This document shows, piece by piece, positions 46,146 through 63,274 of a DNA stretch of 64,000 bases. The stretch's first letter is position 1. Each line of letters opens with the position of its first letter. A program made the translations under genes and the position numbers. The stretch covers positions 248,001 to 312,000 of the forward strand of contig NZ_AP027080.1 in the NCBI RefSeq assembly GCF_030295405.1, in the 5' to 3' direction. Source of the DNA: Mesoterricola silvestris. Lineage in GTDB: Bacteria > Acidobacteriota > Holophagae > Holophagales > Holophagaceae. The notes beneath the pieces are model-generated. The model was not told where the DNA came from. It ran no database searches and was given only the letters and a program-made list of their open reading frames with translations.

Positions 46146-46231
46146 TCCTCTCCCCATTCCTCGACTGGAACAGCAAGTACCTTTTCCCAATATTCTCCTG
46201 AATTGGAACGGCTCCAGGAAATCACCGGAGG

Positions 46232-47179
46232 ATGATGGTGTTCTCAAGCGCCAGAATCAGAGGACTAGTCGTGCCTGCCAAGGCCGCACTGGTAACAATG
46301 GTGGCGGTTGCACTACTGACGCTTACCGTACCCAACAGCTATACGTCCCAGGCCCGGATCCTTCCGGCAGAGAGTAAAGTCGCGGGTGGGGGGCTAGGAG
46401 CGCTGGCCGCTGCTGTGAATGCGGCTGGCTTCTCGGTGCCTGGAGAGGGATCAGATGCGAACTTTGTCGAGATTCTCCAGAGTCGTACGCTTCTTCAGCA
46501 GCTTTTGGAAACTCGGTTCAATTTTCATGAGGCCCGCTTTATGTTTCAGACTGCGGGCCCAAAGGAAATGACCCTTCAGGAGTACCTAGGCGAGAAGAAC
46601 CTGGACCGCGCTCTTAAGCGAGTCAGAAAGACCCTAGCCGCAGACCGAGACCTAAAATCCAAGATACTTGTCATAACGGTAGAAACCCATTCTCCGGACC
46701 TGTCGCAGGCCGTGGCGGCACGATCATTGGAAATCCTGGGTCGATTTGTCCTTGAGAAGAACCAAACCCGAGGTGGCCTGAAAGCTGCCTACCTGGCAGG
46801 GCGCCTGGTCGATGCCGAGAAGGAAACGAACGCAGCGCAGACTGCCATGGAGCAGTTCCTCTCTACGAATCGAAACTGGTCTTCCAGCCCGGATCCGTAC
46901 GTTCGCTTACATGGCGCCAAGCTGGAAGGTGAATTGAAATTTAGACAACAAATGCTTTATTCCTTGGCAATGAATAGGGAGCAAGCCCTTCTTGAGGAGA
47001 AGAACGACCTGCCGATTGTCAATGTGATGGACAAACCGAACCTACCCGTCCTGAAGAGTGGGCCAGCTCGTTCACTTTTCACGCTGGCCGCCGGAATCCT
47101 TGTCTTTCTTTCAATGTGGGGTTGGAGGAGTCGGTCTGAACTCATCGCCTTCCTCAAATCAAACAAGAATTTGATTTAG
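46232..47179 (+). CDS. Wzz-like chain-length determinant protein
   Basis: 315 residues. One membrane helix near residues 15-33, a periplasmic coiled-coil region (about 40-280, with YTSQARILP at its start as in Wzz/GumC proteins), and a second helix near 283-300. There is no attached tyrosine-kinase domain, so it resembles an O-antigen/EPS length regulator. Start choice is open: ATG at 46232 and 46235 lie 0 and 3 bases from the GGAGG site, GTG at 46238 lies 6 bases away. First gene of the polysaccharide island; a Wzy-like gene follows. Confidence 0.75.
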   Translation: MMVFSSARIRGLVVPAKAALVTMVAVALLTLTVPNSYTSQARILPAESKVAGGGLGALAAAVNAAGFSVPGEGSDANFVEILQSRTLLQQLLETRFNFHEARFMFQTAGPKEMTLQEYLGEKNLDRALKRVRKTLAADRDLKSKILVITVETHSPDLSQAVAARSLEILGRFVLEKNQTRGGLKAAYLAGRLVDAEKETNAAQTAMEQFLSTNRNWSSSPDPYVRLHGAKLEGELKFRQQMLYSLAMNREQALLEEKNDLPIVNVMDKPNLPVLKSGPARSLFTLAAGILVFLSMWGWRSRSELIAFLKSNKNLI

Positions 47180-47209
47180 AAAAGGAAAACCCGGGCTTGG
47201 AAAGCTGAC

Positions 47210-48424
47210 ATGATCGCTGGGGCGAAGACCTTCCAGGAAATCCAGGTTGAAGACGGAGGAACTCTACTCGTCCTGGATAAGTTGCGTTGGCTCGCGGTTC
47301 TGATCTCTCTGAGCTTTCCGCTTCTGTTTTTCCCATTCCCCTTCCCTTTTGGTGATTTGGCCCGCACCGTTTTGATCCTATTCCTATTCCCGGGGATTTC
47401 GCTGGCTGGTATGGCAATACCAGTGCTGGTGTTTCTAGTTGCCAAGGATGATTACTTAAGCTACCTTTGGGCTTGTTCAATTTCGAGCTTTTTAGTCTTC
47501 TATCGCATTTCTCGACTTTCATATGATCAGGACTATTTTCGAGCCCTGATCGGCTGGGTTTTCCAGGCGATGAGCTTGATCTTGGGCTTGGTGATCTTCA
47601 TTCAGGCAGTCCAGGTGGTGGATCTCTTTTCTGTGAACTCTCTGATATTAGGCCTGTTCCCGAATATTTCGGGTCTGGCGGAAGGTAAAGGCTGTGCTTT
47701 TTTTACGGAACCTTCCGTTATGGCCGGACCGCTCCTTTTGTATGGCGCCCTTTGTGATCTATACGTGCGCCTTTCAAATGACGTAGGCGTCGAGCGCGCA
47801 AAGGTACGTTGGTTGGTGCTGATGATCTCCACTTTAGCCCTTTCCCGGAGCCTCACCTGTGGTCTTGTGGTTGCATTTTTCTTCTTCCGCCTGTTTTCTC
47901 CCCTACAATTGATCCTTGCGGGTGCATCCTTTGTTTTCCCCGCCTCTCTGTTATTCTTCGACCGGTTATTAGTTGCCGAATCAAGTTTTAATGCCTTTTC
48001 CATATTTAACATAACAACTGCTCTTGGGTCCTGGCGGTCGATCCCGGATCTCGCGATTGTGGCAAATTTTACCGGGTACTTGCTACCCAGTCTCACACCA
48101 GGGGTTAGGGAGCGGATCATGGCCCAGGCAAGTGAGATCAGTCCCGTCTTTACGTGGCTCCAGAACGTTTATTCATATTTTGCCTGCTTTGCAGCGAGCT
48201 TTGGATTACTGCTATCTCTCAGCGTCTTCTTCTTTCTCGGAAGGAGACTCATTGGGAAGTCGCGGGAATTCTCGACAATTCTATACGTGGCGTTGCTCTT
48301 GTTCGCAATGCTCTTCCTCTTGCCCAAATATGACGTGTCATGCTGGGTCGTTTTTGGTTTGATGGCCTTTCAGCGTCGGAACTCTTCAACGGCGCCGGAG
48401 GCGCCTGCAGCCTCATTGCCGTGA
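47210..48424 (+). CDS. O-antigen polymerase-like (Wzy) membrane protein
   Basis: 404 residues, about 10-12 hydrophobic helices with a larger polar loop (around residues 270-315), the usual plan of Wzy polymerases. Sequence identity within this family is low, so the call rests on topology and the neighbouring Wzz-like and Wzx-like genes. It would polymerise repeat units at the outer face of the inner membrane. Codon use is less GC-biased than rpoC next door, as in the whole island. Confidence 0.6.
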   Translation: MIAGAKTFQEIQVEDGGTLLVLDKLRWLAVLISLSFPLLFFPFPFPFGDLARTVLILFLFPGISLAGMAIPVLVFLVAKDDYLSYLWACSISSFLVFYRISRLSYDQDYFRALIGWVFQAMSLILGLVIFIQAVQVVDLFSVNSLILGLFPNISGLAEGKGCAFFTEPSVMAGPLLLYGALCDLYVRLSNDVGVERAKVRWLVLMISTLALSRSLTCGLVVAFFFFRLFSPLQLILAGASFVFPASLLFFDRLLVAESSFNAFSIFNITTALGSWRSIPDLAIVANFTGYLLPSLTPGVRERIMAQASEISPVFTWLQNVYSYFACFAASFGLLLSLSVFFFLGRRLIGKSREFSTILYVALLLFAMLFLLPKYDVSCWVVFGLMAFQRRNSSTAPEAPAASLP

Positions 48425-48518
48425 TGACCGCCTGGAGAGAATTGGCTGAATCATTGGCCAAGGGAATTCTAGGGGACTTGGTGAACGGTCAGGGATAATT
48501 CAACGATTTTGCCAATCC

Positions 48519-49697
48519 ATGGGAGTTGTTTTGAGTAGGTCATCAGCCCAAAAGACCCCGGCAACCCTCACTAATTTGGGGTCTTCGCGCTGGGCTTTCA
48601 TCCTGGAACTCTTCCGTGCTTACCTCGGATCGGCCGTCTCGGTGGGGGCCACCCTTGCGCGCGATAGTGTTGCCTTGCTCATCCATGCGCCCGGAGAAGT
48701 GGTTGTCTTTTTTGCTGGTTTCAATATGGCGACCCTCGCCTCCATGGTGCCTAGCGACTACATAATGACCAAGTTGTTGGCCACAAAAGGCAGCCACATT
48801 CGTGTCTCAGTCCTGGATCTGGTATTCAATGTGCTATTTTCGGCCACCTTTGCACTTGCGATGGGATTCCAAGCAGAAGGCCGTATTTGGGCTCTCGTCG
48901 CAGCGGGAAATTTGCTTCTGGCGTATCCGACGGGAGTGTTCTATGCCAGAAAACAGTACTTTTTTGCGCGAGCCTTTGCGGGCGGCGTTTCGGCGATATC
49001 GGCTGCGCTTTTCCTCCTGCATTTTCGGCTTGACCGGATGTATGCGTGCGCGGTGGTTAGTCTCGTCATCCTTGGGTGGACGATCGTGCTCATTGCCGGC
49101 GGGATTCGGTTTGAATGGAGAAAGAGCATCGATTTCAAGACCCTGCTCCGATTCACGGTTTCCTCCACCCCGTTTGCCCTCTTCTATGGGGGCAATTTTC
49201 ATCTTCTGAAGGCATCAGAGGGAATGGGGAGGCTTCCGCTCCTGGGGAACCGAAGTTGTTACTATGTTTATGCGGTGATGATGATGGCGGCACCGGTTGT
49301 GCTCAAGGCTGTCTCGGAAAAACCGGAATGGTTCCTGGGCTTCATTCACCGTCAACGTCGGCGTGCTCTTGTGTTACTCGTGTCCACCGCGGCCCTGCCA
49401 GCTATTTTGGTCGCCTTTGGCTCTCTCCGGCTCCAATTAATAGGAGCAAACGTGATCCTCCTGGTTTCTGCAATCCTGCTTTATTTTCTTTATAAATTGA
49501 TAATCATTCGTGACGAAGTAGCCCTTTTGGCAAGGTCTACGCTCGCCGTAAGCGTTGTTCTTTATATCCTTTTCCTCGTCCCACTGGCGTTGCATCTGGG
49601 ATTGCGGATATTTGCGACTGCACTTGTTGCAATCGAATTGATCGGCTTGTTTCATCTTCTCGGCCTCGCTAAGCCGAAAACGAAGATGGGAATGTGA
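48519..49697 (+). CDS. multi-pass membrane protein, possible Wzx-type flippase
   Basis: 392 residues with about 10-12 hydrophobic segments. Size, topology and position after Wzz-like and Wzy-like genes suggest a repeat-unit flippase, but I see no diagnostic motif. The ATG at 48519 has no ribosome site, while the in-frame TTG at 48531 has GGGAG about 5 bases upstream and may be the real start. It ends exactly against the convergent hddC gene (no spacer). Confidence 0.5.
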   Translation: MGVVLSRSSAQKTPATLTNLGSSRWAFILELFRAYLGSAVSVGATLARDSVALLIHAPGEVVVFFAGFNMATLASMVPSDYIMTKLLATKGSHIRVSVLDLVFNVLFSATFALAMGFQAEGRIWALVAAGNLLLAYPTGVFYARKQYFFARAFAGGVSAISAALFLLHFRLDRMYACAVVSLVILGWTIVLIAGGIRFEWRKSIDFKTLLRFTVSSTPFALFYGGNFHLLKASEGMGRLPLLGNRSCYYVYAVMMMAAPVVLKAVSEKPEWFLGFIHRQRRRALVLLVSTAALPAILVAFGSLRLQLIGANVILLVSAILLYFLYKLIIIRDEVALLARSTLAVSVVLYILFLVPLALHLGLRIFATALVAIELIGLFHLLGLAKPKTKMGM

Positions 49698-50432
49698 TCA
49701 ACTCGTTGGGCGCTCTCCTGGGAGGAGCGGAATCATGTCTTGGGCATGGCGGTAATCCTCAGGGATGCCGATATCAATGAACGGGGCATCAAATTCCCGA
49801 CCAAAAAGCGACCCTTGTGGGCAGCGGGGTGCGAAGACATCGGTTTCCAAGGAGAAGGGGCGGTCTGCCGGGGTAACCTGAAGGAAGTCTCTTGATAGGA
49901 CGTAGATGCCTCCGTTGATGAGGCCCTCCTCGAGGGCCGTCTTTTCCCGGAAGGAGTAAATGCGTCCATCGGGGCCAAGTTCCACGGTCCCGTATCGGTC
50001 AGCCGGACTCATACGTTTCAAGGCCAGGCAGGCTAGAGCCCCTTGGTGGCCCAGAAAATCCTGGGCTAGATCGTGAAGCGGAATGGGGAAGTATGAATCC
50101 CCGTTCATTACGAACACCGGCCCTGGGGTTGGGGGAAGGGTAGCCAAGGCAAATCGAACCGCACCGCCGGTCCCTAAGGGGCGATCCTCGTGGACGTAGG
50201 ATAGGCTCAGTGGGCCAAAGGAGTATCCAAGGTCTTTCTCAATCTTTTCCCCGAGGTAACCCACGGAGAGCACGGCATTCCGGATACCCTGGCTGGCAAT
50301 TTGGCTCAGGAGATGCTTCAGGAATGGAATACCGCGGATGGGCGCAAGGGGCTTTGGGAGGTCTGATACGACGGCCCGAAGCCGGGTCCCGAACCCACCT
50401 GCCAAGACGATGGCCGTTGAAGCCGTGTTCAT
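49698..50432 (-). CDS. hddC: D-glycero-D-manno-heptose 1-phosphate guanylyltransferase (HddC-like)
   Basis: 244 residues. N-terminal nucleotidyltransferase motif LAGGFGTRLR with DLPKPLAPI, then MNGDSYF (metal-binding Asp). It would attach GMP to heptose 1-phosphate to give GDP-D-glycero-D-manno-heptose. Its start overlaps the gmhA stop by 4 bases and the order hddA-gmhA-hddC is that of GDP-heptose clusters. A hexose-1-phosphate nucleotidyltransferase is the alternative if read in isolation. Confidence 0.85.
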   Translation of the reverse strand: MNTASTAIVLAGGFGTRLRAVVSDLPKPLAPIRGIPFLKHLLSQIASQGIRNAVLSVGYLGEKIEKDLGYSFGPLSLSYVHEDRPLGTGGAVRFALATLPPTPGPVFVMNGDSYFPIPLHDLAQDFLGHQGALACLALKRMSPADRYGTVELGPDGRIYSFREKTALEEGLINGGIYVLSRDFLQVTPADRPFSLETDVFAPRCPQGSLFGREFDAPFIDIGIPEDYRHAQDMIPLLPGERPTS

Positions 50433-51001
50433 GCGAAGAGGCCCTTTTCAACGAGTTCGCAGAGGATGTGCCCGATAAGGATGTGGCCTTCCTGAATACG
50501 TGGTGTGTCGTTGGAGGGGACCTCAAGGAGTATGTCTGAAAGTCCTTTGAGCTTGCCCCCTCCTTCCCCAGTCATTCCGACTGTGACCATGCCGACTTCT
50601 TTGGCCTTTTCAAAAGCGGCGAGGATGTTTTTCGAGTTTCCGGACGTGGTGATGCCTACGAGGACATCGCCTGGGCGTCCTTTCGCCAGAACAAGTCTTG
50701 CGTAGGTGACGTTGTAGTCATAGTCATTGGCAACGGCCGTTAGGAAGGAGGTGTTTACGTGAAGCGCTTCAGAGTCCAAAGGGGGGCGGTCAAAATAGAA
50801 CCGTCCGGAAAATTCGGCGGCAAGATGCTGGGCGTCGGCTGCACTGCCACCGTTTCCGCAGAATAGAACCCTACCGCCCGATCGGAAGGCCGTGATCATG
50901 GCCTCGACGGCCTTTCCCATGCAAGAATGCAGTTCGACATTTCGGCGGAGCTTTTCGGCATTAGCTGCGGATTCGGCAAACACATCATTAATGCGGGTCA
51001 T
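50429..51001 (-). CDS. gmhA: sedoheptulose 7-phosphate isomerase
   Basis: 190 residues of the SIS-domain GmhA family. GRVLFCGNGGSAADAQHLAAEF is the family signature (phosphate loop within it), with SSxTxGNS-like GITTSGNSKN later. It turns sedoheptulose 7-phosphate into heptose 7-phosphate, the first committed step. The start overlaps the hddA stop (ATGA) and has TGGGAGG upstream. Confidence 0.93.
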   Translation of the reverse strand: MTRINDVFAESAANAEKLRRNVELHSCMGKAVEAMITAFRSGGRVLFCGNGGSAADAQHLAAEFSGRFYFDRPPLDSEALHVNTSFLTAVANDYDYNVTYARLVLAKGRPGDVLVGITTSGNSKNILAAFEKAKEVGMVTVGMTGEGGGKLKGLSDILLEVPSNDTPRIQEGHILIGHILCELVEKGLFA

Positions 51002-52023
51002 GCTTCCTCCCAGGTAATGAGGCCAGTGTTGGTGAACTGGAAGCGGCAGACGGTTCCGAGTTCAGGTGAGAGTGCTCTGGAGACTGCATGCCAGGCATTG
51101 TCTGGGCAGTAGAAGATCATATGGCCGCCGCCACCGGCGCCGGACAGCTTACCTCCGGTCGCTCCAGCCTGGATGGCCGTTTCGTAAATTTTGTCGATGG
51201 CAGGGTTTGTGATCCCATCCGCCATCTTCTTTTTTGACTGCCAACCAAAATCCAGGATTCTACCCAGGTCAGCAAGTCTGCCCAAGAGAAGGGCTTCCTT
51301 CATTTCGACCGCTTGGGTTTTCAATTTGTGCATCGCTTCGATCGCGGTGGCCTTTTTATCGAGGGCGTTGCGGCTCTGTTTCTCAATGATGGTGGATGAA
51401 AGGCGACTCGCTCCCGTATAGAAGAGCAGCAAGTTGTTCTCCAATTGGAGAATCCGCGAGTCCTTAAGTCGGAGCGGGTTTACGATGACCTTGTCGTTTC
51501 CATAGAACTCCATGAAATTGAACCCGCCAAAAGTCGCGGCATACTGATCTTGTTTGCCGCCAGCCATGCCGAGGTCCTCGCGTTCAATCTCATAGGCAAG
51601 CCTAGCGATCTCATACTCTCCAAGAGGTAGCGAGAGCCATTCTGCGAAGGCACCCACCAGTGCCGTTACCAGGGTGGATGAAGATCCAAGACCCGAACCC
51701 GGCGGGGCATCCACGTGGGTGCTGAGTTCGAAGGCAAGAGGGCGCTTGACGTACTGTGAGACAACCCGGTTGTAGACGCCCTTCAGGAGTTGGAGGGGGC
51801 CTTCCGGGGCGAGGAAATCCCTGCTCTCGTGTTCCTCAACCAGACCGTGGTCGAGGCTCTTGAGGACGATACGATTCCCATCGAGAGGACGAATGGAGGC
51901 CGTGGCGAAAAGATTGATGGTTGCGTTTAGGATGCTCCCGCCATACAGGTCTGAGTATGGACTGACGTCCGTGCCGCCTCCTGCGAGGCCGATTCTGAGG
52001 GGAGCACGGGAATGAACCAGCAT
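50998..52023 (-). CDS. hddA: D-glycero-D-manno-heptose 7-phosphate kinase (GHMP family)
   Basis: 341 residues of the GHMP kinase fold. The N-terminal SRAPLRIGLAGGGTDVSPY, the ATP loop PPGSGLGSSSTLVTAL and the C-terminal GGKLSGAGGGGHM are all present. It phosphorylates heptose 7-phosphate at C1. The 1,7-bisphosphate must then lose its C7 phosphate (GmhB) before HddC; no gmhB is seen in this window. The ATG follows CAGGAG. First gene of the three-gene heptose unit. Confidence 0.92.
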   Translation of the reverse strand: MLVHSRAPLRIGLAGGGTDVSPYSDLYGGSILNATINLFATASIRPLDGNRIVLKSLDHGLVEEHESRDFLAPEGPLQLLKGVYNRVVSQYVKRPLAFELSTHVDAPPGSGLGSSSTLVTALVGAFAEWLSLPLGEYEIARLAYEIEREDLGMAGGKQDQYAATFGGFNFMEFYGNDKVIVNPLRLKDSRILQLENNLLLFYTGASRLSSTIIEKQSRNALDKKATAIEAMHKLKTQAVEMKEALLLGRLADLGRILDFGWQSKKKMADGITNPAIDKIYETAIQAGATGGKLSGAGGGGHMIFYCPDNAWHAVSRALSPELGTVCRFQFTNTGLITWEEA

Positions 52024-52184
52024 GCATCTTCTCCTGAGGGAATCGTCGGTTGTCCGACGGGTGATGAATTGTTACGGAAAATCTGAAGGGATTAGGCGAA
52101 CAGGAGACACCCAAAAGGAGCATTCGTTCCGGGAAGGGAATTATCTCGCTTGTTGTAGCGGAAAATCCGGTTGTATCAGATGTT

Positions 52185-52940
52185 TCATCTGGGGCGTTTT
52201 ACAAACTGAAATAGGCGGGAGGTGAATTTTCGGAGAAAATACAGTGGGCTGACGTGGATTCCATGATCCCGGAAGGCACGCCAATTCTCACCGTTCATCC
52301 GCAGAATATTGCCAAGGTTCCGGTTGGAAGCGCCGCCCATCCGCATTCTAACGAGAATCCCGGGAATATGAGTTGTCCGGATTCCGTTGATCGCGATGAA
52401 GCGAAGCATGAGTTCCATGTCCGCGGCGATTCGATATTCGGTGTTGAATCCCCCGAGTCTCACATAGACTTCTCGTCGGGCATAGAAGGTCGGGAAGGGT
52501 GGAAGCCAGCCTGACTCAAAGGAGCCCAATTTGTAAGGGCTAGACTTCCAGTATCTGATGATTCGGTTAATGTCATCGGAGGCGACATAGGCTAGGTCTC
52601 CAAAGACGGCGTCGCAGGTGCCTGCTTCAAACGTTTCCGCAATTCGCTGGAGGACGCCGTCATTGTCCAGCACATCATCAGAATTGAGTGTGCCGAGGAT
52701 GTCCCCCGTAGCGGCGGCGATGCCTTTGTTCATGGCATCGTAGAGTCCCTTGTCGGGTTCTGACACGAAATAAGCGATCCTGGGCAGGAATGGTCGAATA
52801 GCCTCAAGGGTGGGTTCGGCGGACCCTCCATCGATGACCACCAGTTCGACCTCATGGGACGTTTTCTGTTCCAGGATCGATTTCAGGGCCTCCGCCACCT
52901 GCGGGTTGTTCCATACGACCGTGATGACGCTGATTTTCAT
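52185..52940 (-). CDS. family 2 glycosyltransferase
   Basis: 251 residues of the GT-A type. N-terminal ISVITVVWNN, then LVVIDGGSAEPT, PDKGLYDAMNKGI and the metal motif in LNSDDV are typical of the WcaE-like group of GT2. It would add a sugar to the polysaccharide repeat unit on the cytoplasmic side. Start at 52940 with GAGG upstream. A 161-base low-GC gap separates it from hddA, so it may have its own transcript. Confidence 0.88.
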   Translation of the reverse strand: MKISVITVVWNNPQVAEALKSILEQKTSHEVELVVIDGGSAEPTLEAIRPFLPRIAYFVSEPDKGLYDAMNKGIAAATGDILGTLNSDDVLDNDGVLQRIAETFEAGTCDAVFGDLAYVASDDINRIIRYWKSSPYKLGSFESGWLPPFPTFYARREVYVRLGGFNTEYRIAADMELMLRFIAINGIRTTHIPGILVRMRMGGASNRNLGNILRMNGENWRAFRDHGIHVSPLYFLRKFTSRLFQFVKRPR

Positions 52941-53353
52941 GTTTCGAGTCCTCTTTGGCCAACCAGGGGCGCACCTTTAGGGCTTCGCGCCGGATGATAC
53001 TGGCCTGATTCTTCCAAGCATACCAAAGAATCAACGCCACTTCGACAATTTGGGGAAGGATGGGGGACTGGTCTCAAATTCCCCGACCCCTGGCGACAGC
53101 GAAGCTCCATAAGGGTTTCCTGGAAATTCTCAAGGCGGGGTTCATAGGGTGGCGCCGATCCAGGATGCGGGTTAACGGGTGTTCTCGGAATGGAAACCGT
53201 TCCTGGAGATATAGGTCTCATTTCAAATAGTGACGACGCCTGTTGCTGTGCGAAATTTTCCAATTGCCTGTATTGAAGTTGTGTGTAGAATTGACTGTCT
53301 AAGATTGGATTGTCTTGACATTATTTCAAACGATAGGTGAGGAGGTACTGGTT
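52941..53353. other. 413-base gap between divergent genes
   Basis: The left half is still moderately GC-rich and holds only weak minus-strand open frames without ribosome sites. The right third (about 53220-53350) is AT-rich and should carry the gmd promoter: TTGTGT (53279-53284) with TAAGAT (53300-53305) is possible but the spacer is only 15 bases, and TTGACA (53315-53320) has no matching -10. I see no convincing gene. Confidence 0.35.
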
Positions 53354-54439
53354 ATGGCCAAGGTCGCTCTGATTACGGGAGTCACGGGTCAAGATGGAGC
53401 CTACTTGGCAGAATTTCTGCTCAACAAAGGCTATGAAGTACATGGTATCAAGCGAAGGTCATCTTCGTTCAATACGGCCAGAATCGACCATCTTTTTCAC
53501 GATTTGCACGAGTCCGGGAGATCCTTTTATCTCCATTACGGAGATATGACGGATTCTTCTGGTCTTACCCGTATTATCCAGGACGTACAACCTGATGAAA
53601 TATATAACTTAGCTGCACAAAGCCATGTTCAGGTGTCATTCGAGGAGCCGGAATATACTGCCAATTCAGACGCCCTGGGCGCTCTTCGGATCCTGGAAGC
53701 GATTCGCCTGCTTGGGTTGTCGAAGAAGACGCGATTTTACCAGGCTTCCACTTCCGAGCTGTACGGTCTGGTCCAGGAAGTGCCTCAGCGTGAGACGACG
53801 CCCTTCTATCCGCGCTCGCCTTACGCCGTGGCCAAGCTTTATGCATATTGGATCACGGTGAATTATCGGGAGGCCTATGGCATCTTCGGGTGCAACGGCA
53901 TTCTTTTCAACCACGAGAGTCCGCTTCGGGGCGAAACGTTCGTGACCCGGAAGATCACTCGTGGTTTGTCACGTATCAAACTGGGCGTTCAAGAATGCCT
54001 TTATCTTGGAAACCTGGATGCGCTGCGTGATTGGGGCCATGCCCGAGACTACGTCGAAATGCAGTGGCTCATGCTCCAGCAGGAGCGCCCCGAGGACTTC
54101 GTCATCGCCACAGGGATGCAGTACAGCGTGCGAGACTTTGTGAACGCGGTGGCGAAGGAGCTGGGCATGGCCATTACCTGGCGAGGGGAAGGAAAGAACG
54201 AGCAGGGATTCGACTCGGACGGCAAGTGCGTTGTGGCGGTGGATCCGAGGTACTTCCGCCCGACAGAAGTTGCCTCCCTGCTTGGAGACGCATCCAAGGC
54301 TCGGGAAAAATTGGGTTGGGTGCCTGCCACGGATTTCAATACTCTGGTCAAGGAGATGACCCGGGAGGATCTACGGGCGGCAGAGCGAGATGAACTCGTC
54401 AAGCGGCACGGTTATCAGATTTTTCAGCAAGCCGAATAG
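53354..54439 (+). CDS. gmd: GDP-mannose 4,6-dehydratase family protein
   Basis: 361 residues of the short-chain dehydrogenase fold. NAD-binding [15 protein letters not shown] is at about residues 9-23, catalytic residues lie in STSELYG and [12 protein letters not shown] (YxxxK), and [20 protein letters not shown] is the Gmd hallmark. It makes GDP-4-keto-6-deoxy-mannose. Because GDP-heptose genes lie next to it, it could instead act on GDP-manno-heptose, as the related DmhA/WcbK enzymes do. The ATG at 53354 has AGGAGG 8 bases upstream. Confidence 0.9.
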
Positions 54440-54472
54440 GTAATCCAGGGGTTATATGGTTTGGGAGGTGGC

Positions 54473-55396
54473 TTGAAAATTCTTCTAACGGGTGCCGCTG
54501 GCATGGTCGGCAAGAACTTGCTTGAGCACCCTGCTGCACGTTCTCACGCTTTCCTTACACCCCGCCAAGATGAACTGGATCTTCGCGACTACCCTGCTCT
54601 TCTTGCATACCTAAAAACCAATTTGCCCGATCTTGTGATCCACGCAGCGGGGAAGGTTGGGGGAATTCAGGCCAACATGGCGGATCCCGTCGGATTCCTC
54701 CTTGAGAACTTGGATATGGGGCGGAACCTGGTGTGGGGGGCGAGGAACGCCGGTATTCCCCGCTTGCTCAACCTGGGCAGCTCCTGTATGTATCCCCGCA
54801 ATATCTCGGAGCCGCTTCGGGAGGAAATGGTCCTGAAGGGGGAATTGGAGCCAACGAATGAAGGGTACGCCCTGGCCAAGGTGACGACGGCCCGGCTTTG
54901 CGAGTACATCACAAGGGCTGAACCCAAATTTCAGTACAAGACGTTTATTCCTTGCAATTTATATGGCAGGCACGACAAATTCGATGCCTTTGCCGCCCAC
55001 CTGATTCCCGCCGTCATCCGCAAAGTGGACGAAGCGGTCCGTACGGATGCAGAGGTGATCACGATTTGGGGGGACGGCACCGCGCGAAGGGAATTCATGT
55101 ACGCTGGTGATATGGCTGATGCGCTCATTCAAGGTGTCGAGCGGTTTGATGCATTACCAGAAACGATGAACGTAGGCCTCGGAACGGATTGGTCCGTGAA
55201 CGAATACTACGAAGCCGTCGCCGACGTGATGGGCTACAGGGGCAGGTTTGACCACGACCTGACAAAGCCTGTTGGAATGGCACGCAAGCTGGTCTCCACC
55301 GAGCGCCTGGAGGCTTGGGGCTGGAGGGCAGGCACAAGCCTTCGGGATGGTGTTCAGAAGACGGTGGATTTTTTCAAAAAGGAGTGGCAAGGATGA
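54473..55396 (+). CDS. GDP-L-fucose synthase-like NAD-dependent epimerase/reductase (Fcl/ColC type)
   Basis: 307 residues. The Rossmann motif LLTGAAGMVGKNL opens the protein. HAAGKVGGIQANMADP and LGSSCMYP (catalytic Ser/Cys region) and YALAKVTT (YxxxK) are typical of Fcl. It epimerises and/or reduces a GDP-4-keto sugar. Next to a ColD-like protein it could be the ColC-type enzyme that finishes GDP-colitose or a heptose equivalent. The start is TTG at 54473, preceded by GGGAGG. It overlaps the next gene by 4 bases. Confidence 0.85.
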   Translation: MKILLTGAAGMVGKNLLEHPAARSHAFLTPRQDELDLRDYPALLAYLKTNLPDLVIHAAGKVGGIQANMADPVGFLLENLDMGRNLVWGARNAGIPRLLNLGSSCMYPRNISEPLREEMVLKGELEPTNEGYALAKVTTARLCEYITRAEPKFQYKTFIPCNLYGRHDKFDAFAAHLIPAVIRKVDEAVRTDAEVITIWGDGTARREFMYAGDMADALIQGVERFDALPETMNVGLGTDWSVNEYYEAVADVMGYRGRFDHDLTKPVGMARKLVSTERLEAWGWRAGTSLRDGVQKTVDFFKKEWQG

Positions 55397-56559
55397 GCTT
55401 TCGCTTCCCTCTGGCAACGACGTCCTGGGGCACGGAGGAGATAGACGCGATGCACCGCGTCATCGATTCCGGAATGTACACAATGGGTCCGAACGTCAAG
55501 GCCTGCGAGAAGGCATTTGCCCAGGCGATGGGCAGCCGCTCTTGCGTAATGGTGAATTCTGGTTCTTCTGCGAACCTCTTGATGATTGCGGCACTGTTTT
55601 ACACAAAGGACCCTTTGCTCAAATTAAAGGCGGGGGATGAGATCATTGTTCCCGCCGTTTCCTGGAGCACAACCTACTATCCACTTCATCAGTACGGCCT
55701 GAAGTTGAAATTTGTAGATATCGACCTTGAAACGCTGAATCTCGACCACTCGGCCCTTGAGAGGGCGCTCACGGACCGCACGCGGGCGATCCTTGCCGTC
55801 AATCTTTTGGGTAACCCCAATGATTTTAATAAAATACAGCAGCTTATCGCAGGACGGGATATCCTGTTGCTCGAAGACAACTGCGAGTCGATGGGAGCCC
55901 GATTCCAGGGCCGCATGGCGGGGACCTTCGGTCTGATGGGAACCTACAGCTCCTTCTTCAGTCATCACATCTCGACGATGGAGGGCGGGTTCGTGGTGAC
56001 TGACAACGAGGAACTCGACCAAATTCTTCGCTGCCTACGGGCCCATGGCTGGACCCGGGATTTGCCTAAGTCCAACCTTGTCTGTGGGGACAAGGGAGAA
56101 GATCCCTTCGAAGAGTCCTATCGCTTTGTTCTGCCAGGCTATAACTTCCGGCCCCTGGAAATGGAGGGCGCTTTGGGCATCGAGCAGATTCGGCGCCTGC
56201 CTTCGATTGTTGCCGAGCGCCGCAAGAACGCGGCTCTCTTCCAGGCCAAGATGGAAAGCCATCCGGACCTCATGATTCAACGGGAAACCGGAGAGAGCAG
56301 CTGGTTCGGGTTCAGCCTCGTCATCCGCCCAGGGCGAGCCCTCACCCGAAAAGCACTGGTTAAAAGGCTTAACGAATTGGGCTTTGAATGCCGCCCCATT
56401 GTCGCCGGCAATTTCGCTAAGAATGAAGTGGTTAAATTCTTCAATGCGGAAGTGGCCAGTCCGCTTCGCAACGCCGAGCACATCGACCAGTTTGGGCTTT
56501 TCATTGGGAATCACCACTTCCCGATTGCGGAAGCGTTTGAGCAACTTGGTAGGGTCTAA
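55393..56559 (+). CDS. ColD-like PLP enzyme: GDP-4-keto-6-deoxysugar 3-dehydratase
   Basis: 388 residues of the DegT/DnrJ/EryC1 fold. In aminotransferases of this family a lysine that binds PLP sits in a SFHxxK...EGG motif. Here the segment reads SSFFSHHISTMEGG, with His191 at the lysine position. A Lys-to-His change is the known mark of 3-dehydratases (ColD; the CDP-sugar E1/RfbH group), which remove the C3 hydroxyl instead of transferring an amino group. LRAHGWTRDLP also fits the ColD branch. The start overlaps the preceding stop (ATGA). The GDP substrate could be a mannose or a manno-heptose derivative. Confidence 0.85.
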   Translation: MSFRFPLATTSWGTEEIDAMHRVIDSGMYTMGPNVKACEKAFAQAMGSRSCVMVNSGSSANLLMIAALFYTKDPLLKLKAGDEIIVPAVSWSTTYYPLHQYGLKLKFVDIDLETLNLDHSALERALTDRTRAILAVNLLGNPNDFNKIQQLIAGRDILLLEDNCESMGARFQGRMAGTFGLMGTYSSFFSHHISTMEGGFVVTDNEELDQILRCLRAHGWTRDLPKSNLVCGDKGEDPFEESYRFVLPGYNFRPLEMEGALGIEQIRRLPSIVAERRKNAALFQAKMESHPDLMIQRETGESSWFGFSLVIRPGRALTRKALVKRLNELGFECRPIVAGNFAKNEVVKFFNAEVASPLRNAEHIDQFGLFIGNHHFPIAEAFEQLGRV

Positions 56560-56563
56560 GGCC

Positions 56564-57616
56564 CTACAGGGTCTGCCGGATTCTCTCTAGGTTTGCTTGG
56601 AAGTGAAAGGTGTTGAGGAAATTTGACCGGCAATTTGCCGAGAATTGGTCTTGGTTTTCTCGGATCTTGCTGGCGGCCTCCATGATGGCCATGGGGGAGG
56701 GGTCCTTCACGAAGATCCCTTCCTGGCCGTCGCGCATGAATTCGGGAAGCGAGCCAACAGGTGATGCTAAGCTTGGTGCGCCCAGCATTTGGGCCCGCGG
56801 TAGTACGCCGCTCTGGGTTGTGCGTTTATAGAGATTCCAGGTGCAGACGCTCTGAAGGTATAGATTGTTGATTTCCTCGTTGGTGAGCGGACGCCCGCAC
56901 TGAACCCGGAGGCGGTTTCCGAGCTTTCGCAGAGCTCGTTTGAAGGCCGTTGAGGTCGGCGTCGGGGAACGTGAAGCGAGAAGGAAGGTAAGGGAGGAAT
57001 CCTGGTCCGCCGCGAATTCCATGAAACGAACGAAGGCGTCAAAGGCATGCCCCGGGCAAATGGTGCCGATGTAGCTCACAAAGCGGCGCTCCGGTAGTTC
57101 CCCCTTGGGGCACTCATCCGTGAGTAGAAGCGGAATATACTCTACGTGGTGGTTGTACCGAACGTCGCCCTGGTGATAGAGTTCCATCGCCCGCTTTGAT
57201 GAGAGAATGACCAGGTCCGACAGTTTGAGGAGGTCCACTGAGAACCTGTGGGCTAGGGTCAGCTTTAGGGTGGAGTAGGGACCTTCGGTTCGCAGATAGG
57301 TGGGAATGGATTCCCAAGGTTCATGATAGACGTAGGCCACTTTTAGGCCACAGCCCTTCATTCGCCGCGCCAAGGTGGCATTGTTCGGGGCCATGTTATA
57401 GAAGAGCGCTAGATCGAATGACCTCAGATCGATTGCGCCCGGACCCTCGGCCTCAAGGATCGGTGCTGTCTCGGCCAGTTCCTTGAAGAGTTTGTAAGAC
57501 GGATGCAGCAGGAACGCTACGGAATGCCCCAATGCTTGATAACCCAGGGCATAGGCCATCAAGTGAGAGGCATGTGCGGGCGAGAAGTGGAGTGAGACGA
57601 GAAGTACCTTTGGCAT
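56564..57616 (-). CDS. GT4-like (GT-B fold) glycosyltransferase
   Basis: 350 residues. The N-terminal half (VLLVSLHFSPAHASHLMAYA) and the C-terminal half with RAQMLGAPSLASPVGSLPEF and GQEGIFVKDPSPMAI are typical of GT-B enzymes, where the latter region binds the nucleotide sugar. It is a likely heptosyl- or hexosyltransferase of the island; the acceptor is unknown. It is on the opposite strand, with its stop 4 bases from the ColD-like stop. The upstream ribosome site is weak. Confidence 0.78.
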   Translation of the reverse strand: MPKVLLVSLHFSPAHASHLMAYALGYQALGHSVAFLLHPSYKLFKELAETAPILEAEGPGAIDLRSFDLALFYNMAPNNATLARRMKGCGLKVAYVYHEPWESIPTYLRTEGPYSTLKLTLAHRFSVDLLKLSDLVILSSKRAMELYHQGDVRYNHHVEYIPLLLTDECPKGELPERRFVSYIGTICPGHAFDAFVRFMEFAADQDSSLTFLLASRSPTPTSTAFKRALRKLGNRLRVQCGRPLTNEEINNLYLQSVCTWNLYKRTTQSGVLPRAQMLGAPSLASPVGSLPEFMRDGQEGIFVKDPSPMAIMEAASKIRENQDQFSANCRSNFLNTFHFQANLERIRQTL

Positions 57617-57894
57617 AATCGCTTTCGTAACGGAGATGATTCCGCCTGGGGCGGCTCAGGGTTCCCGGTGGGGGAATCGTGCCTTCGCGTGGGATACGAA
57701 GTTTCGATTCGAGCGTTAAAGAACATCCTAGCATCAGAGGAACGCACCTGTACCGATGTTCGCCGTAACCAAAGCCCGCACGGCAGATCGAATGCCAGCT
57801 CGTCAATGCATCGATTGGTTTGCGGTTCGATTTACGCTGTCAATGCCGTAAAGTTGGGATTATTATTGTATATAGAGAAGCTCGGGGAGGGCAT
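57617..57894 (+). promoter_or_regulatory. gap before the small-peptide operon
   Basis: 278 bases between divergent genes with no recognisable gene. The right end is strongly AT-rich and has a TATATA (57869-57874), 20 bases upstream of the next start, but I find no well-spaced -35. It probably contains promoters in both directions. Confidence 0.3.
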
Positions 57895-58023
57895 ATGTAC
57901 ACAGATCCAGGCTCTGGTTCAATGATAATTCAGGTCCTTATTGCGGCAGCCGTAGGAGGAGCGATTACTCTTATTGCGAAAATCAAAACGCTCTTCCATC
58001 GGAAACAGGGGAAGGGTGAATGA
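57895..58023 (+). CDS. 42-residue single-pass membrane peptide (DPGSGS type)
   Basis: It begins MYTDPGSGSMIIQVL, followed by a hydrophobic helix (about residues 10-30) and a basic tail (KIKTLFHRKQGKGE). The ATG has a strong GGGGAGGG ribosome site, and the stop overlaps the next start (ATGA), so translation is coupled to the methyltransferase. Short proteins with a Y-x-DPGxGS start and one helix occur in other polysaccharide clusters as I recall them; I know of no assigned function. It may be a small membrane partner of the last gene in the unit. Confidence 0.75.
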   Translation: MYTDPGSGSMIIQVLIAAAVGGAITLIAKIKTLFHRKQGKGE

Positions 58024-59417
58024 CTCATATCAAGGGAATGAGGGCTTCCTTTCGAGATCCTGCCGGGAAATTAATTCGGCACGATAATAAGATAATTAGG
58101 TGGATTGCTCCAGAATCAGAAGATGCCTTCCGTCTAATTGAATCTTCCAGTGAAATTAAAGGCTTTATTAGTCGAAATTCGATTATTCCATATGATCGAG
58201 TAGATGGCGATCTAAGTTTAAATTTTGCGGGGATTGGTAAGGGAGGAGTATGGGTTGAGCACCCGCGAATTGCATTTCCCACCTACCCGGAAGAGTGGAC
58301 GTTCGGCATGTTAAAGGCTGCGGCGTCCCTCAGTTTGGAATTAGCGGACGCCATCCTGGCTGATGGATTAGAACTAAAAGACTGCACCCCCTACAACGTC
58401 CTATTCCGGGGGGCTGAACCTACTTTCGTTGATCTCCTCTCCTTCACTCCATTCACCGGAAGATCAGTATGGGGGGCCTATGGGCAGTGCCTCCGGACGT
58501 TCATGCTTCCGCTCTGGCTATGCAAGGATTTTGGCTTGCGTCTTGACCGACTCTTCCTGTGTGAAAGAGAAGGTATAAGCCCGGAGGAGGCAGGCCGTTT
58601 GGTGGGACTGGGTCGAAAACTCCTTCCACCCTACCTTTACTGGCTTGCAATTCCGGGGCTTCTTGCGAAATTCCTTCCGGCAATACGCGAATCCTCTCTG
58701 GAAGTAGAGGTCTCAAAACGCCTCCATCGGATGAGGATCCGATCTCTGGTACAGGCACTGAGTTCCTGCCGGAGGCATCAAGGCTCGTCCAACTGGACGG
58801 AATATACGGCCGATCGTAATTACGGCGATTCGGACCTCGCGGGCAAATTGGCTATGGTTTGCGCTGCGTTGGATGGGCTTGGCCCAAACGATGTTGTATT
58901 GGACGTCGGCGCGAATACGGGAGAATTTTCCGTGCTGGCCGCCCAGCGGGGGATGCAGGTGGTCTCCCTTGATTCCGACGAGCAATCTTTGGACCTCCTT
59001 TGGGAAAAGGCAAGGACCCATGGGTATAATATCCTTCCCCTTGTGATGAATATTGCTCGTCCAACGCCTGCCACAGGGTGGAAGGGTGAAGAACAAATTT
59101 CCTTCATGGACCGCGCCTCGGGGGCCTTTGACCTGATTTTGGCCTTGGCCGTAATCCATCATCTTCGATTCACAGAGGGGGTGCCGCTTGCCCTGCAGGT
59201 TGACCTATTCTCTACGCTCACCAAAGGACGGCTATTGGTGGAATGGGTGGGCACAAAAGATGAAAGAGTTGTGGAATTGATTAGGCGTTTTGGGTATCTC
59301 CCCGCAGATTATACTAAGGCCCAGTTCGAAGCCGCGCTGGAAGACAAATTTCAAGTGCTGAGTCATGAACAAGTCGGTCAGACAGACCGGTGGATATACT
59401 TATGCGAGAAACGCTAA
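58020..59417 (+). CDS. class I SAM-dependent methyltransferase with extra N-terminal domain
   Basis: 465 residues. The C-terminal half is a Rossmann methyltransferase: motif I VVLDVGANTGEFS at residues 292-304 and an acidic end of strand 2 in VVSLDSDE. The N-terminal half (about 1-240) starts with SFRDPAGKLIRHDNKI and contains LELKDCTPYNVLF then PTFVDLLSF (residues 117-142). That pair resembles the catalytic and metal loops of aminoglycoside-phosphotransferase-like kinases, and similar N-termini are found in NoeA-like methyltransferases. A kinase-like fold is inference. It overlaps the small peptide gene by 4 bases and the next gene by 16. Confidence 0.75.
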   Translation: MTHIKGMRASFRDPAGKLIRHDNKIIRWIAPESEDAFRLIESSSEIKGFISRNSIIPYDRVDGDLSLNFAGIGKGGVWVEHPRIAFPTYPEEWTFGMLKAAASLSLELADAILADGLELKDCTPYNVLFRGAEPTFVDLLSFTPFTGRSVWGAYGQCLRTFMLPLWLCKDFGLRLDRLFLCEREGISPEEAGRLVGLGRKLLPPYLYWLAIPGLLAKFLPAIRESSLEVEVSKRLHRMRIRSLVQALSSCRRHQGSSNWTEYTADRNYGDSDLAGKLAMVCAALDGLGPNDVVLDVGANTGEFSVLAAQRGMQVVSLDSDEQSLDLLWEKARTHGYNILPLVMNIARPTPATGWKGEEQISFMDRASGAFDLILALAVIHHLRFTEGVPLALQVDLFSTLTKGRLLVEWVGTKDERVVELIRRFGYLPADYTKAQFEAALEDKFQVLSHEQVGQTDRWIYLCEKR

Positions 59418-60979
59418 AACGATACTGGAGACAGGCCCTTTCGGCCATGGTGCTGGGCCATTTGATTTTCTTGCACTCTTGGATTCTCCTTCTTGGACCT
59501 TCCCCGCGAGAATTTCTGATTGCTAGACCTCCCGGGGGTATTGCCTTTCTGGGTTTGTCCCTCAATATCTTGATCTCGACCATCGGCACCTTCCTCGTGC
59601 TGCGACGGGCGGAGGAAAATTCCAAGGCCTATGGTGCCCTGGCAATCGCTTTGGTATGCCTTGGCTGTCTCTCCTTGGCGCGAGCCGTCGTGCCTAGCCT
59701 TCCTGCGAGACTCGCTATATTGGCCTATTCAAAATGGAGGCCCTTTGCATTTGCAATTCCGGTGATCGCCCTTGTTTTGGCCATTGTGATCCAGGGCCTG
59801 GGAAACCTCCTCAGGGCTTGCGTAAGAGGCCTCCTGGTGCTTTCGCCGCTGGTGCCTGTTCTGTGGTTTCAGGCGTTCGAGTCCTTGACCAAAAGAATCC
59901 TGTTCCCGGTCACTCCATTCTCACCTGTGATCGAAGTTCAGCCCGTGCCAGAGGGAAAGGATGTCTGGATTCTAGTTTTCGATGAGCTTGATTACCGAAT
60001 ATGTTTTGAGACGCCTGGAACCCGGGGCCGTTACCCGGAGTTAAATACACTTCGTGACCAAGCGTTTTCCGCCGATCGGGCCTATCCGCCGGCCGGCGAC
60101 ACCATCATTTCCGTTCCTGCGATGATGAGAGGCGAGGTAATTGAAAATACTCAGCCGCTCAACGCCTCAACCCTCCTTTTCAAGGCTCCTGGGCGGTCTC
60201 TGCAAACCTGGGATCCGAGCGAGTCCCTCATTGGCGATTTACATGGTGCTGGCTACCGCATCGCCGTCGCAGGCTGGATGATCCCCTACAACCGCCTATT
60301 TAGCCGCTATGCGGAGGAATCAAAATTCCTGCTGTATTACCGTTACGGAATTTGGCAAGAATTGAATCAATCCCTGACAGGCTCCATGATGACTCAGGCG
60401 GTGGACCTCTACCCCTTTATCAAGGACGGACTTAATTCCTATCTGGCTTCCCCTGCCATTGAAAGTCGGCAGCAGCGCAAGACCGAGGAAGAGTTGGAAT
60501 CCTTTGTAGACCATCTGGTCGAGGGGAGCCGATTAGACTTCTATTGGGTTCATTACCCTATCCCCCATGGTCCCGCGATCTCAGGTCCCAGCGGTAGCTA
60601 CCTGGAGAACATTGGGTACATGGATCAGGCGCTGGGAAGATTCCGGAAGGCGATGTCGGCTAAAGGGCGGTGGGATTCTTCCACGGTCATTCTTATCGCG
60701 GACCATTGGTTGCGTAAGAACTCGGACCCTACCCTGAAGTTGTTCCAGTTGGGTCTTGCGGGGCGTTGGGACAAGGTCGACCACAGGATTCCATTCATTG
60801 TGAAGTTCCCTGGGAGCAAAGTGGCGATGAGGTACAGCCACCCTTTCAACCTGACCCTGCTCCGCAAGCTGATCCCGGAAATGATGGGCGGAAAAGTCCG
60901 AACACCGAGTCAGCTTGCGGAGTGGATTGAGACCCAAAAAGGATTTGGGGAAAGCCCGGTGACTTCCACCTTGCCTTAA
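59402..60979 (+). CDS. membrane-anchored alkaline phosphatase/sulfatase-superfamily enzyme
   Basis: 525 residues. Four to five hydrophobic helices (about 12-165) are followed by a periplasmic domain with superfamily metal-site segments: WILVFDELDYRI, GDTIISVPAMMRGE (nucleophile Thr/Ser region), HYPIPHGP and VILIADHWLRK. The plan is that of lipopolysaccharide phosphoethanolamine or phosphoglycerol transferases, so it may decorate the polysaccharide or a lipid. The ATG at 59402 lies inside the methyltransferase end, with GGTGG about 8 bases upstream; a GTG at 59390 is also in frame. Substrate unknown. Confidence 0.75.
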   Translation: MRETLKRYWRQALSAMVLGHLIFLHSWILLLGPSPREFLIARPPGGIAFLGLSLNILISTIGTFLVLRRAEENSKAYGALAIALVCLGCLSLARAVVPSLPARLAILAYSKWRPFAFAIPVIALVLAIVIQGLGNLLRACVRGLLVLSPLVPVLWFQAFESLTKRILFPVTPFSPVIEVQPVPEGKDVWILVFDELDYRICFETPGTRGRYPELNTLRDQAFSADRAYPPAGDTIISVPAMMRGEVIENTQPLNASTLLFKAPGRSLQTWDPSESLIGDLHGAGYRIAVAGWMIPYNRLFSRYAEESKFLLYYRYGIWQELNQSLTGSMMTQAVDLYPFIKDGLNSYLASPAIESRQQRKTEEELESFVDHLVEGSRLDFYWVHYPIPHGPAISGPSGSYLENIGYMDQALGRFRKAMSAKGRWDSSTVILIADHWLRKNSDPTLKLFQLGLAGRWDKVDHRIPFIVKFPGSKVAMRYSHPFNLTLLRKLIPEMMGGKVRTPSQLAEWIETQKGFGESPVTSTLP

Positions 60980-60988
60980 TGGCCTTCG

Positions 60989-63085
<2,097 letters not shown>

Positions 63086-63274
63086 GGATTCTCCTGGGAC
63101 CTCGGTCCCGAAGTGGCTCCCTGATTGCGATCCCTCCATGAAACCCTCCGCCGGAACGTATGGGAGGAGGTGGGCTTCCTGCAGAGGTCGCTGCCGACGG
63201 GAGCGAACGGATCGGCACGTCAATCCTATCACATTGGGAAATAAGAGGCCCGTCTTCCCTGCCCCCGGGGAGGG

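Follow-up and report, generated by a model that had tools for sequence, protein, structure and literature searches.

A conserved small membrane peptide accompanies NoeA and NoeB homologues in Mesoterricola silvestris and in other bacteria

Three plus-strand genes with overlapping ends, the first encoding only 42 residues, raise the question of whether so short a frame is a genuine protein and what it might do beside the two enzymes that follow it. The genes lie in a 64,000-nucleotide stretch of the Mesoterricola silvestris genome (NZ_AP027080.1, positions 248,001 to 312,000; hereafter the window, in whose coordinates all positions are given). The initial annotation had described a peptide, a methyltransferase and a membrane enzyme in this order with overlaps of 4 and 16 bases, and the layout is borne out as follows:

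57895–58023, + strand: small membrane peptide, 42 aa; ORF begins MYTDPGSGSMIIQVL...; N-terminal YTDPGSGS motif, one membrane helix containing Gln, basic tail
58020–59417, + strand: gene 2, NoeA homologue, 465 aa, with homology over its full length
58020–58769, + strand: gene 2 N-terminal kinase-like domain, residues 1–250; R27, D121, N126 and D138 invariant
58785–59414, + strand: gene 2 C-terminal class I SAM-dependent methyltransferase domain, residues 256–465, with Pfam methyltransferase matches
59402–60979, + strand: gene 3, NoeB-like membrane enzyme of the alkaline phosphatase superfamily, 525 aa, from ATG 59402
59402–59911, + strand: NoeB membrane domain of about five helices, residues 1–170; model helices 2–31, 45–71, 75–96, 113–146 and 150–167
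59948–60976, + strand: NoeB predicted periplasmic catalytic domain, residues 183–525; D194, T234, H384, H389, D434, H435

An in-frame GTG at 59390 offers an alternative start for gene 3, which would extend its overlap with gene 2 to 28 bases. Shine-Dalgarno-like sequences precede the peptide start (GGGGAGG) and the gene 2 start (GGGGAAGG). In the 4.99-Mb one-contig genome the peptide is single copy, its sole other match being insignificant, and gene 3 likewise occurs once, besides one remote sulfatase-domain match.

Comparison by tblastn relates gene 2 to NoeA of Sinorhizobium, Ensifer and Rhizobium plasmids with 28–33% identity over 96–100%, and relatives in Singulisphaera, Novosphingobium, Gemmatirosa and one deltaproteobacterium fall in the same identity range. 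Against Sinorhizobium NoeA the coverage reaches 98% at about 28% identity, in keeping with the NoeA-family architecture. The two-domain organization proposed earlier is upheld by a C-terminal methyltransferase domain (residues 256–465) behind an N-terminal domain of about 250 residues (AlphaFold model pLDDT 92.7). Invariant positions in all 60 NoeA relatives are found in both halves: R27, D121, N126 and D138 in the N-terminal half, and D295, G297, N299, G301, H380 and H381 in the C-terminal half. The methyltransferase domain gives Z scores up to 19.0 (179 residues, rmsd 2.8; VIA-align), and in a structure search with whole NoeA the match list was filled by this domain alone. For the N-terminal domain of the Legionella NoeA homologue, a kinase fold is reported in a 2022 study (PMC9758233). 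The spacing of D121-x4-N126 and D138 in the present family fits a kinase, while the profile did not score above shuffled controls against APH kinases and found no match among PDB sequences at E up to 10. We describe this domain as kinase-like, the kinase fold being taken from the literature on the homologue.

WbdD of Escherichia coli O9a, an O-antigen chain terminator, likewise combines kinase-like and class I methyltransferase domains and is linked to an envelope polysaccharide. However, its methyltransferase domain matches that of gene 2 no better than many others do (Z 16.9, 185 residues, rmsd 2.9), and the domain order is reversed: in WbdD the methyltransferase comes first and then the kinase, so that residues 256–465 of gene 2 align to WbdD chain residues 5–211. 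The two are also treated as separate kinase-methyltransferase proteins in the 2022 study (PMC9758233).

Gene 3 was expected to encode a membrane enzyme of the phosphatase superfamily, and it matches Pfam Sulfatase (PF00884) with E 6.6e-11, above the Pfam cut-off. In its AlphaFold model (pLDDT 84.9), the catalytic domain resembles sulfatases and phosphonate monoester hydrolases with Z of about 22.8–25.1 (Z 25.1 over 302 residues, rmsd 3.6; VIA-align), and full-length PDB matches include the membrane protein PbgA/YejM. D194, H384, H389 and D434 are present in 40/40 relatives, and T234 and H435 in 39/40. A type I (formylglycine) sulfatase was considered and rejected, the Cys/Ser-x-Pro/Ala-x-Arg signature being absent and the nucleophile position being Thr in 39/40 relatives, in a T-x-x-S-x-P-like context. 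The predicted layout and site are those of an LtaS/EptA-type phosphotransferase, with N-terminal membrane helices, a Thr nucleophile and Asp-His metal ligands; we take the Thr position and the Asp-His pair to be as in LtaS/EptA. Similarly to NoeB, LtaS/EptA and PbgA/YejM carry membrane helices followed by an outside domain of alkaline-phosphatase fold, but their sequence similarity to NoeB is low, as it is between gene 3 and lipoteichoic acid primase (E 5.8e-5). A scan of genome contigs with the single gene 3 sequence found no relatives, the query being too divergent, and NoeB relatives were searched by alignment instead. On plasmids, tblastn with gene 3 gave no match although true NoeB genes are present there. 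NoeB diverges faster than NoeA.

The peptide belongs to a family whose mature N-terminus carries the motif Y-x-D-P-G-[ST]-G-S-x3-Q. All 86 members have Q12; Y1 is found in 85, D3 and G7 in 84 each, and Ser/Thr at position 6 in 82. In 49 of the 86 the motif follows a signal-peptide-like sequence, and in others, the window peptide included, it follows a short start. The segment past the helix averages +4.3 charges across the family, and this charge suggests a topology with the N-terminal motif outside and the basic tail inside. pN/pS values of 0.18, 0.16, 0.23 and 0.35 in four clades indicate purifying selection. No Pfam or NCBIfam model matched above cut-off in the 32 members scanned, which gave only scattered weak matches of single members. 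Upstream of NoeA in one locus (L038), the peptide frame runs on for about 120 residues of membrane-like sequence, a possible fusion.

We assessed how constant the three genes are as neighbours by searching genome contigs with a nine-row NoeA alignment, which added 80 further loci and brought the set to 90 loci in more than 20 phylum-level groups. A peptide profile places a relative within 1 kb and on the same strand in 82 of these. Of the remaining eight, three have the peptide adjacent on the other strand, one has it across NoeB, two loci are truncated by contig ends and two have no local copy; in both genomes of the last kind it is present elsewhere. Overall, peptides adjoin the NoeA homologue in 86/90 loci, S. 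meliloti among them, and NoeB relatives stand next to NoeA in 75/90. From this adjacency to gene 2 homologues and the pN/pS range of 0.16–0.35, we conclude that the peptide is no chance frame. The usual order is peptide-NoeA-NoeB, as in the Legionellales loci L148, L150 and L152, with the peptide commonly right upstream of noeA and the ends overlapping. Two Holophaga-group loci (L006, L024) have NoeA-peptide-NoeB, L075 has peptide-NoeB-NoeA, and the peptide lies downstream of noeA in L006, L020, L059, L088, L097 and L147. Rare adjacency of the three genes, or a peptide frame lacking conservation, would have spoken against the initial proposal; neither is seen, as the trio is adjacent in the majority of genomes and conservation of the frame is strong.

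The association survives where linkage is lost. Of 247 Acidobacteriota genomes, 52 carry the peptide and precisely these 52 also carry full-length NoeA; the count ignores relatedness, while the 52 genomes span more than 20 families and one family (f1) contains genomes with both and genomes with neither. Peptide and NoeA are at most 300 bases apart in 46 of the 52 and unlinked in six. In four of these six (G139, G203, G196, G269) all three genes are dispersed, with peptide, NoeA and a single strong NoeB (E of about 1e-68 to 1e-70) each at a different site, and in the other two (L134, L137) the peptide stands beside NoeB though parted from NoeA. Strong NoeB (above about 140 bits) was found in 34 genomes, 32 of them within the NoeA set; with six candidates scored per genome, five of the 52 NoeA-bearing genomes have NoeB-like genes under the cut-off. 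The phylum of the Shewanella locus, covered with 299 genomes, has NoeA in seven and the peptide in those seven plus one (G413, locus L159), a genome without NoeA in which the peptide stands beside a NoeB-like gene on the opposite strand; it is the sole exception to the peptide-NoeA pairing. The identical 52-genome sets, together with the unlinked and dispersed cases, indicate that the trio very probably forms one functional unit. The initial annotation had proposed one unit from overlap; the coupling proves far stronger than a sequence-only reading could show, and the novelty lies in a nearly inseparable membrane micro-protein. We note two further arrangements: in L142 (G090:C20:119000-131000) a further peptide copy is found next to a NoeB-like gene, some 17 kb away from the copy linked to NoeA, possibly a separate pairing, and in L143 (G139:C1:1747000-1760000) NoeA stands alone between nadD-like and rsfS-like genes, a housekeeping-like position.

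The view that the set has no described function does not hold, since NoeA and NoeB are known from Medicago nodulation, and the bioinformatic description of 2022 is also on record. The S. meliloti operon nodL-noeA-noeB was described in 1995. Its three genes are reported to set the host range on particular Medicago species, and alfalfa-nodulating rhizobia need NoeA and NoeB to nodulate certain Medicago hosts (PMC4053727 and PMC9048898, which both cite Ardourel 1995). noeA is described as truncated in a strain failing on 17/27 Medicago, and nodL encodes an O-acetyltransferase acting on Nod factor (PMC9048898). The annotation of Ensifer canadensis places a hypothetical protein between nodL and noeA, with noeB, a sulfatase-like hydrolase/transferase, coming last, and Rhizobium sp. 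T1470 has the same order. On Sinorhizobium plasmids, weak peptide matches sit immediately upstream of noeA. The rhizobial hypothetical protein between nodL and noeA is the peptide: a signal peptide, then YLDPGTGSMLVQ. From the NoeA homology and this position of the peptide, the window trio represents the NoeA-NoeB module together with this peptide, genes 2 and 3 being the NoeA and NoeB homologues.

The S. meliloti operon thus resembles the window in its NoeA homology (about 28%), its downstream NoeB-like enzyme and a peptide of the same family. In contrast, the window holds neither nodL nor nodulation genes, and its host, a relative of free-living Acidobacteriota, carries the module in a polysaccharide island. 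The published operon, as described in citing papers, names three genes and the peptide is not among them. Between nodL and noeA it also encodes an unnamed fourth protein, about 70 residues long. A system taken to consist of two proteins probably has three, and a necessary component may have been missed since the 1995 host-range description; the question is directly testable in S. meliloti, a symbiont with known phenotypes. In Legionella anisa, the 2022 kinome paper describes the NoeA homologue as a kinase-methyltransferase with conserved genes on both sides (Lani_1193-1194-1195), Lani_1195 being NoeB-like (PMC9758233). The peptide lies directly upstream of noeA in the three related Legionellales loci, and Lani_1193 is therefore probably the peptide; in the main text of that paper it is not presented as a peptide family, and the Lani genes are seen as possible effectors (PMC9758233). 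Because this survey already gave the NoeA neighbourhood, the advance made here lies in the identity of the peptide, its motif, its topology and its near-absolute co-occurrence.

In the window, the module stands at the end of a surface-polysaccharide island that lies between rpoC and pnp and is low in GC (46200–61000, where GC falls from about 0.66 to 0.52–0.56); the island was probably acquired or is fast-evolving. The neighbours of the trio are a glycosyltransferase gene and pnp, with no nodL beside it:

49698–52023, − strand: hddC- and hddA-like GDP-heptose genes (best NCBIfam matches, below curated cut-offs)
53315–56559: gmd-like, GDP-fucose-synthase-like and DegT-family genes, the GDP-6-deoxy-sugar genes of the island
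56564–57616, − strand: glycosyltransferase gene, neighbour of the trio
60989–63232, − strand: pnp, neighbour of the trio

Where a DegT enzyme usually carries its PLP lysine, this one reads SHHIS, pointing to a GDP-colitose-type pathway for a 3-deoxy sugar. Elsewhere, 98 flanking proteins of other loci show no dominant family and are mostly unrelated to glycans, so that the case for a glycan substrate comes from the nodulation operon and from this window. Modification of a glycan or lipid by the trio, as first suggested, is plausible, with most loci beyond the window lying outside glycan clusters. The module also occurs in Gram-positive Micromonospora, and with such a spread its chemistry may hold for bacterial envelopes in general. 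The text of a paper on Actinoplanes exopolysaccharide clusters contains no NoeA, NoeB or sulfatase.

We lean, by a little better than an even chance, towards a single envelope-modifying NoeA-NoeB module with the small membrane peptide as its constant third subunit. NoeA, soluble on the cytoplasmic side, would phosphorylate and/or methylate a precursor, and NoeB, with five membrane helices and an outside catalytic domain, would catalyse a phospho-transfer or phospho-cleavage reaction through a metal-dependent, LtaS/EptA-like mechanism with a Thr nucleophile. The peptide, its YxDPGSGS end outside and basic tail inside, would couple or position the two enzymes; the assembly or anchoring role first proposed is one of several options. 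The product here would probably be the surface polysaccharide of the adjoining island or the lipid carrier of that polysaccharide. Homology, co-occurrence, conserved residues and predicted folds come from the present analysis and the N-terminal kinase-like fold from the literature, while the topology, the coupling role, the reaction order and the substrate are what we infer. A rather unlikely alternative is that the target is a membrane lipid or polyprenyl carrier, not a specific glycan, NoeB moving a phospho-headgroup that NoeA makes or methylates. The presence of the module in more than 20 phylum-level groups, mostly outside glycan clusters, suits so general a substrate, and the LtaS/EptA-like layout of NoeB also speaks for this reading, but in rhizobia, the source of the only genetics, noeA and noeB lie beside nodL and are tied to host-specific nodulation (PMC9048898).

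The peptide could also be the substrate or carrier, NoeA and NoeB modifying its exposed YxDPG[ST]GS end or using it as an acceptor to yield a modified membrane micro-protein. The motif at the mature N-terminus would lie outside, where the NoeB catalytic domain lies, with Ser/Thr at position 6 nearly constant (82/86), no other partner of NoeA is conserved as tightly as the peptide, and the module is often free-standing, without glycan genes. However, a NoeA that is cytoplasmic, as predicted, would have no access to the outer end once the peptide is inserted, and the invariant Gln within the membrane helix suggests packing, not modification; we consider this reading distinctly improbable. A broader proposal, which we regard as doubtful, makes the micro-protein with its outward YxDPG[ST]GS an obligate third NoeA-NoeB component across more than 20 phylum-level groups that was overlooked in the rhizobial operon. 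In that case a new membrane-spanning kinase/methyltransferase/phosphotransferase pathway would have the micro-protein itself as its modified product or as a catalytic cofactor. That the peptide is merely a translational leader or anchor, preceding noeA by chance, would fit its frequent place directly upstream with overlapping ends, but it is hardly credible: the peptide is conserved at the protein level and shares its genomes with noeA even when the two lie far apart, these unlinked cases already contradict it, and in six loci the peptide follows noeA.
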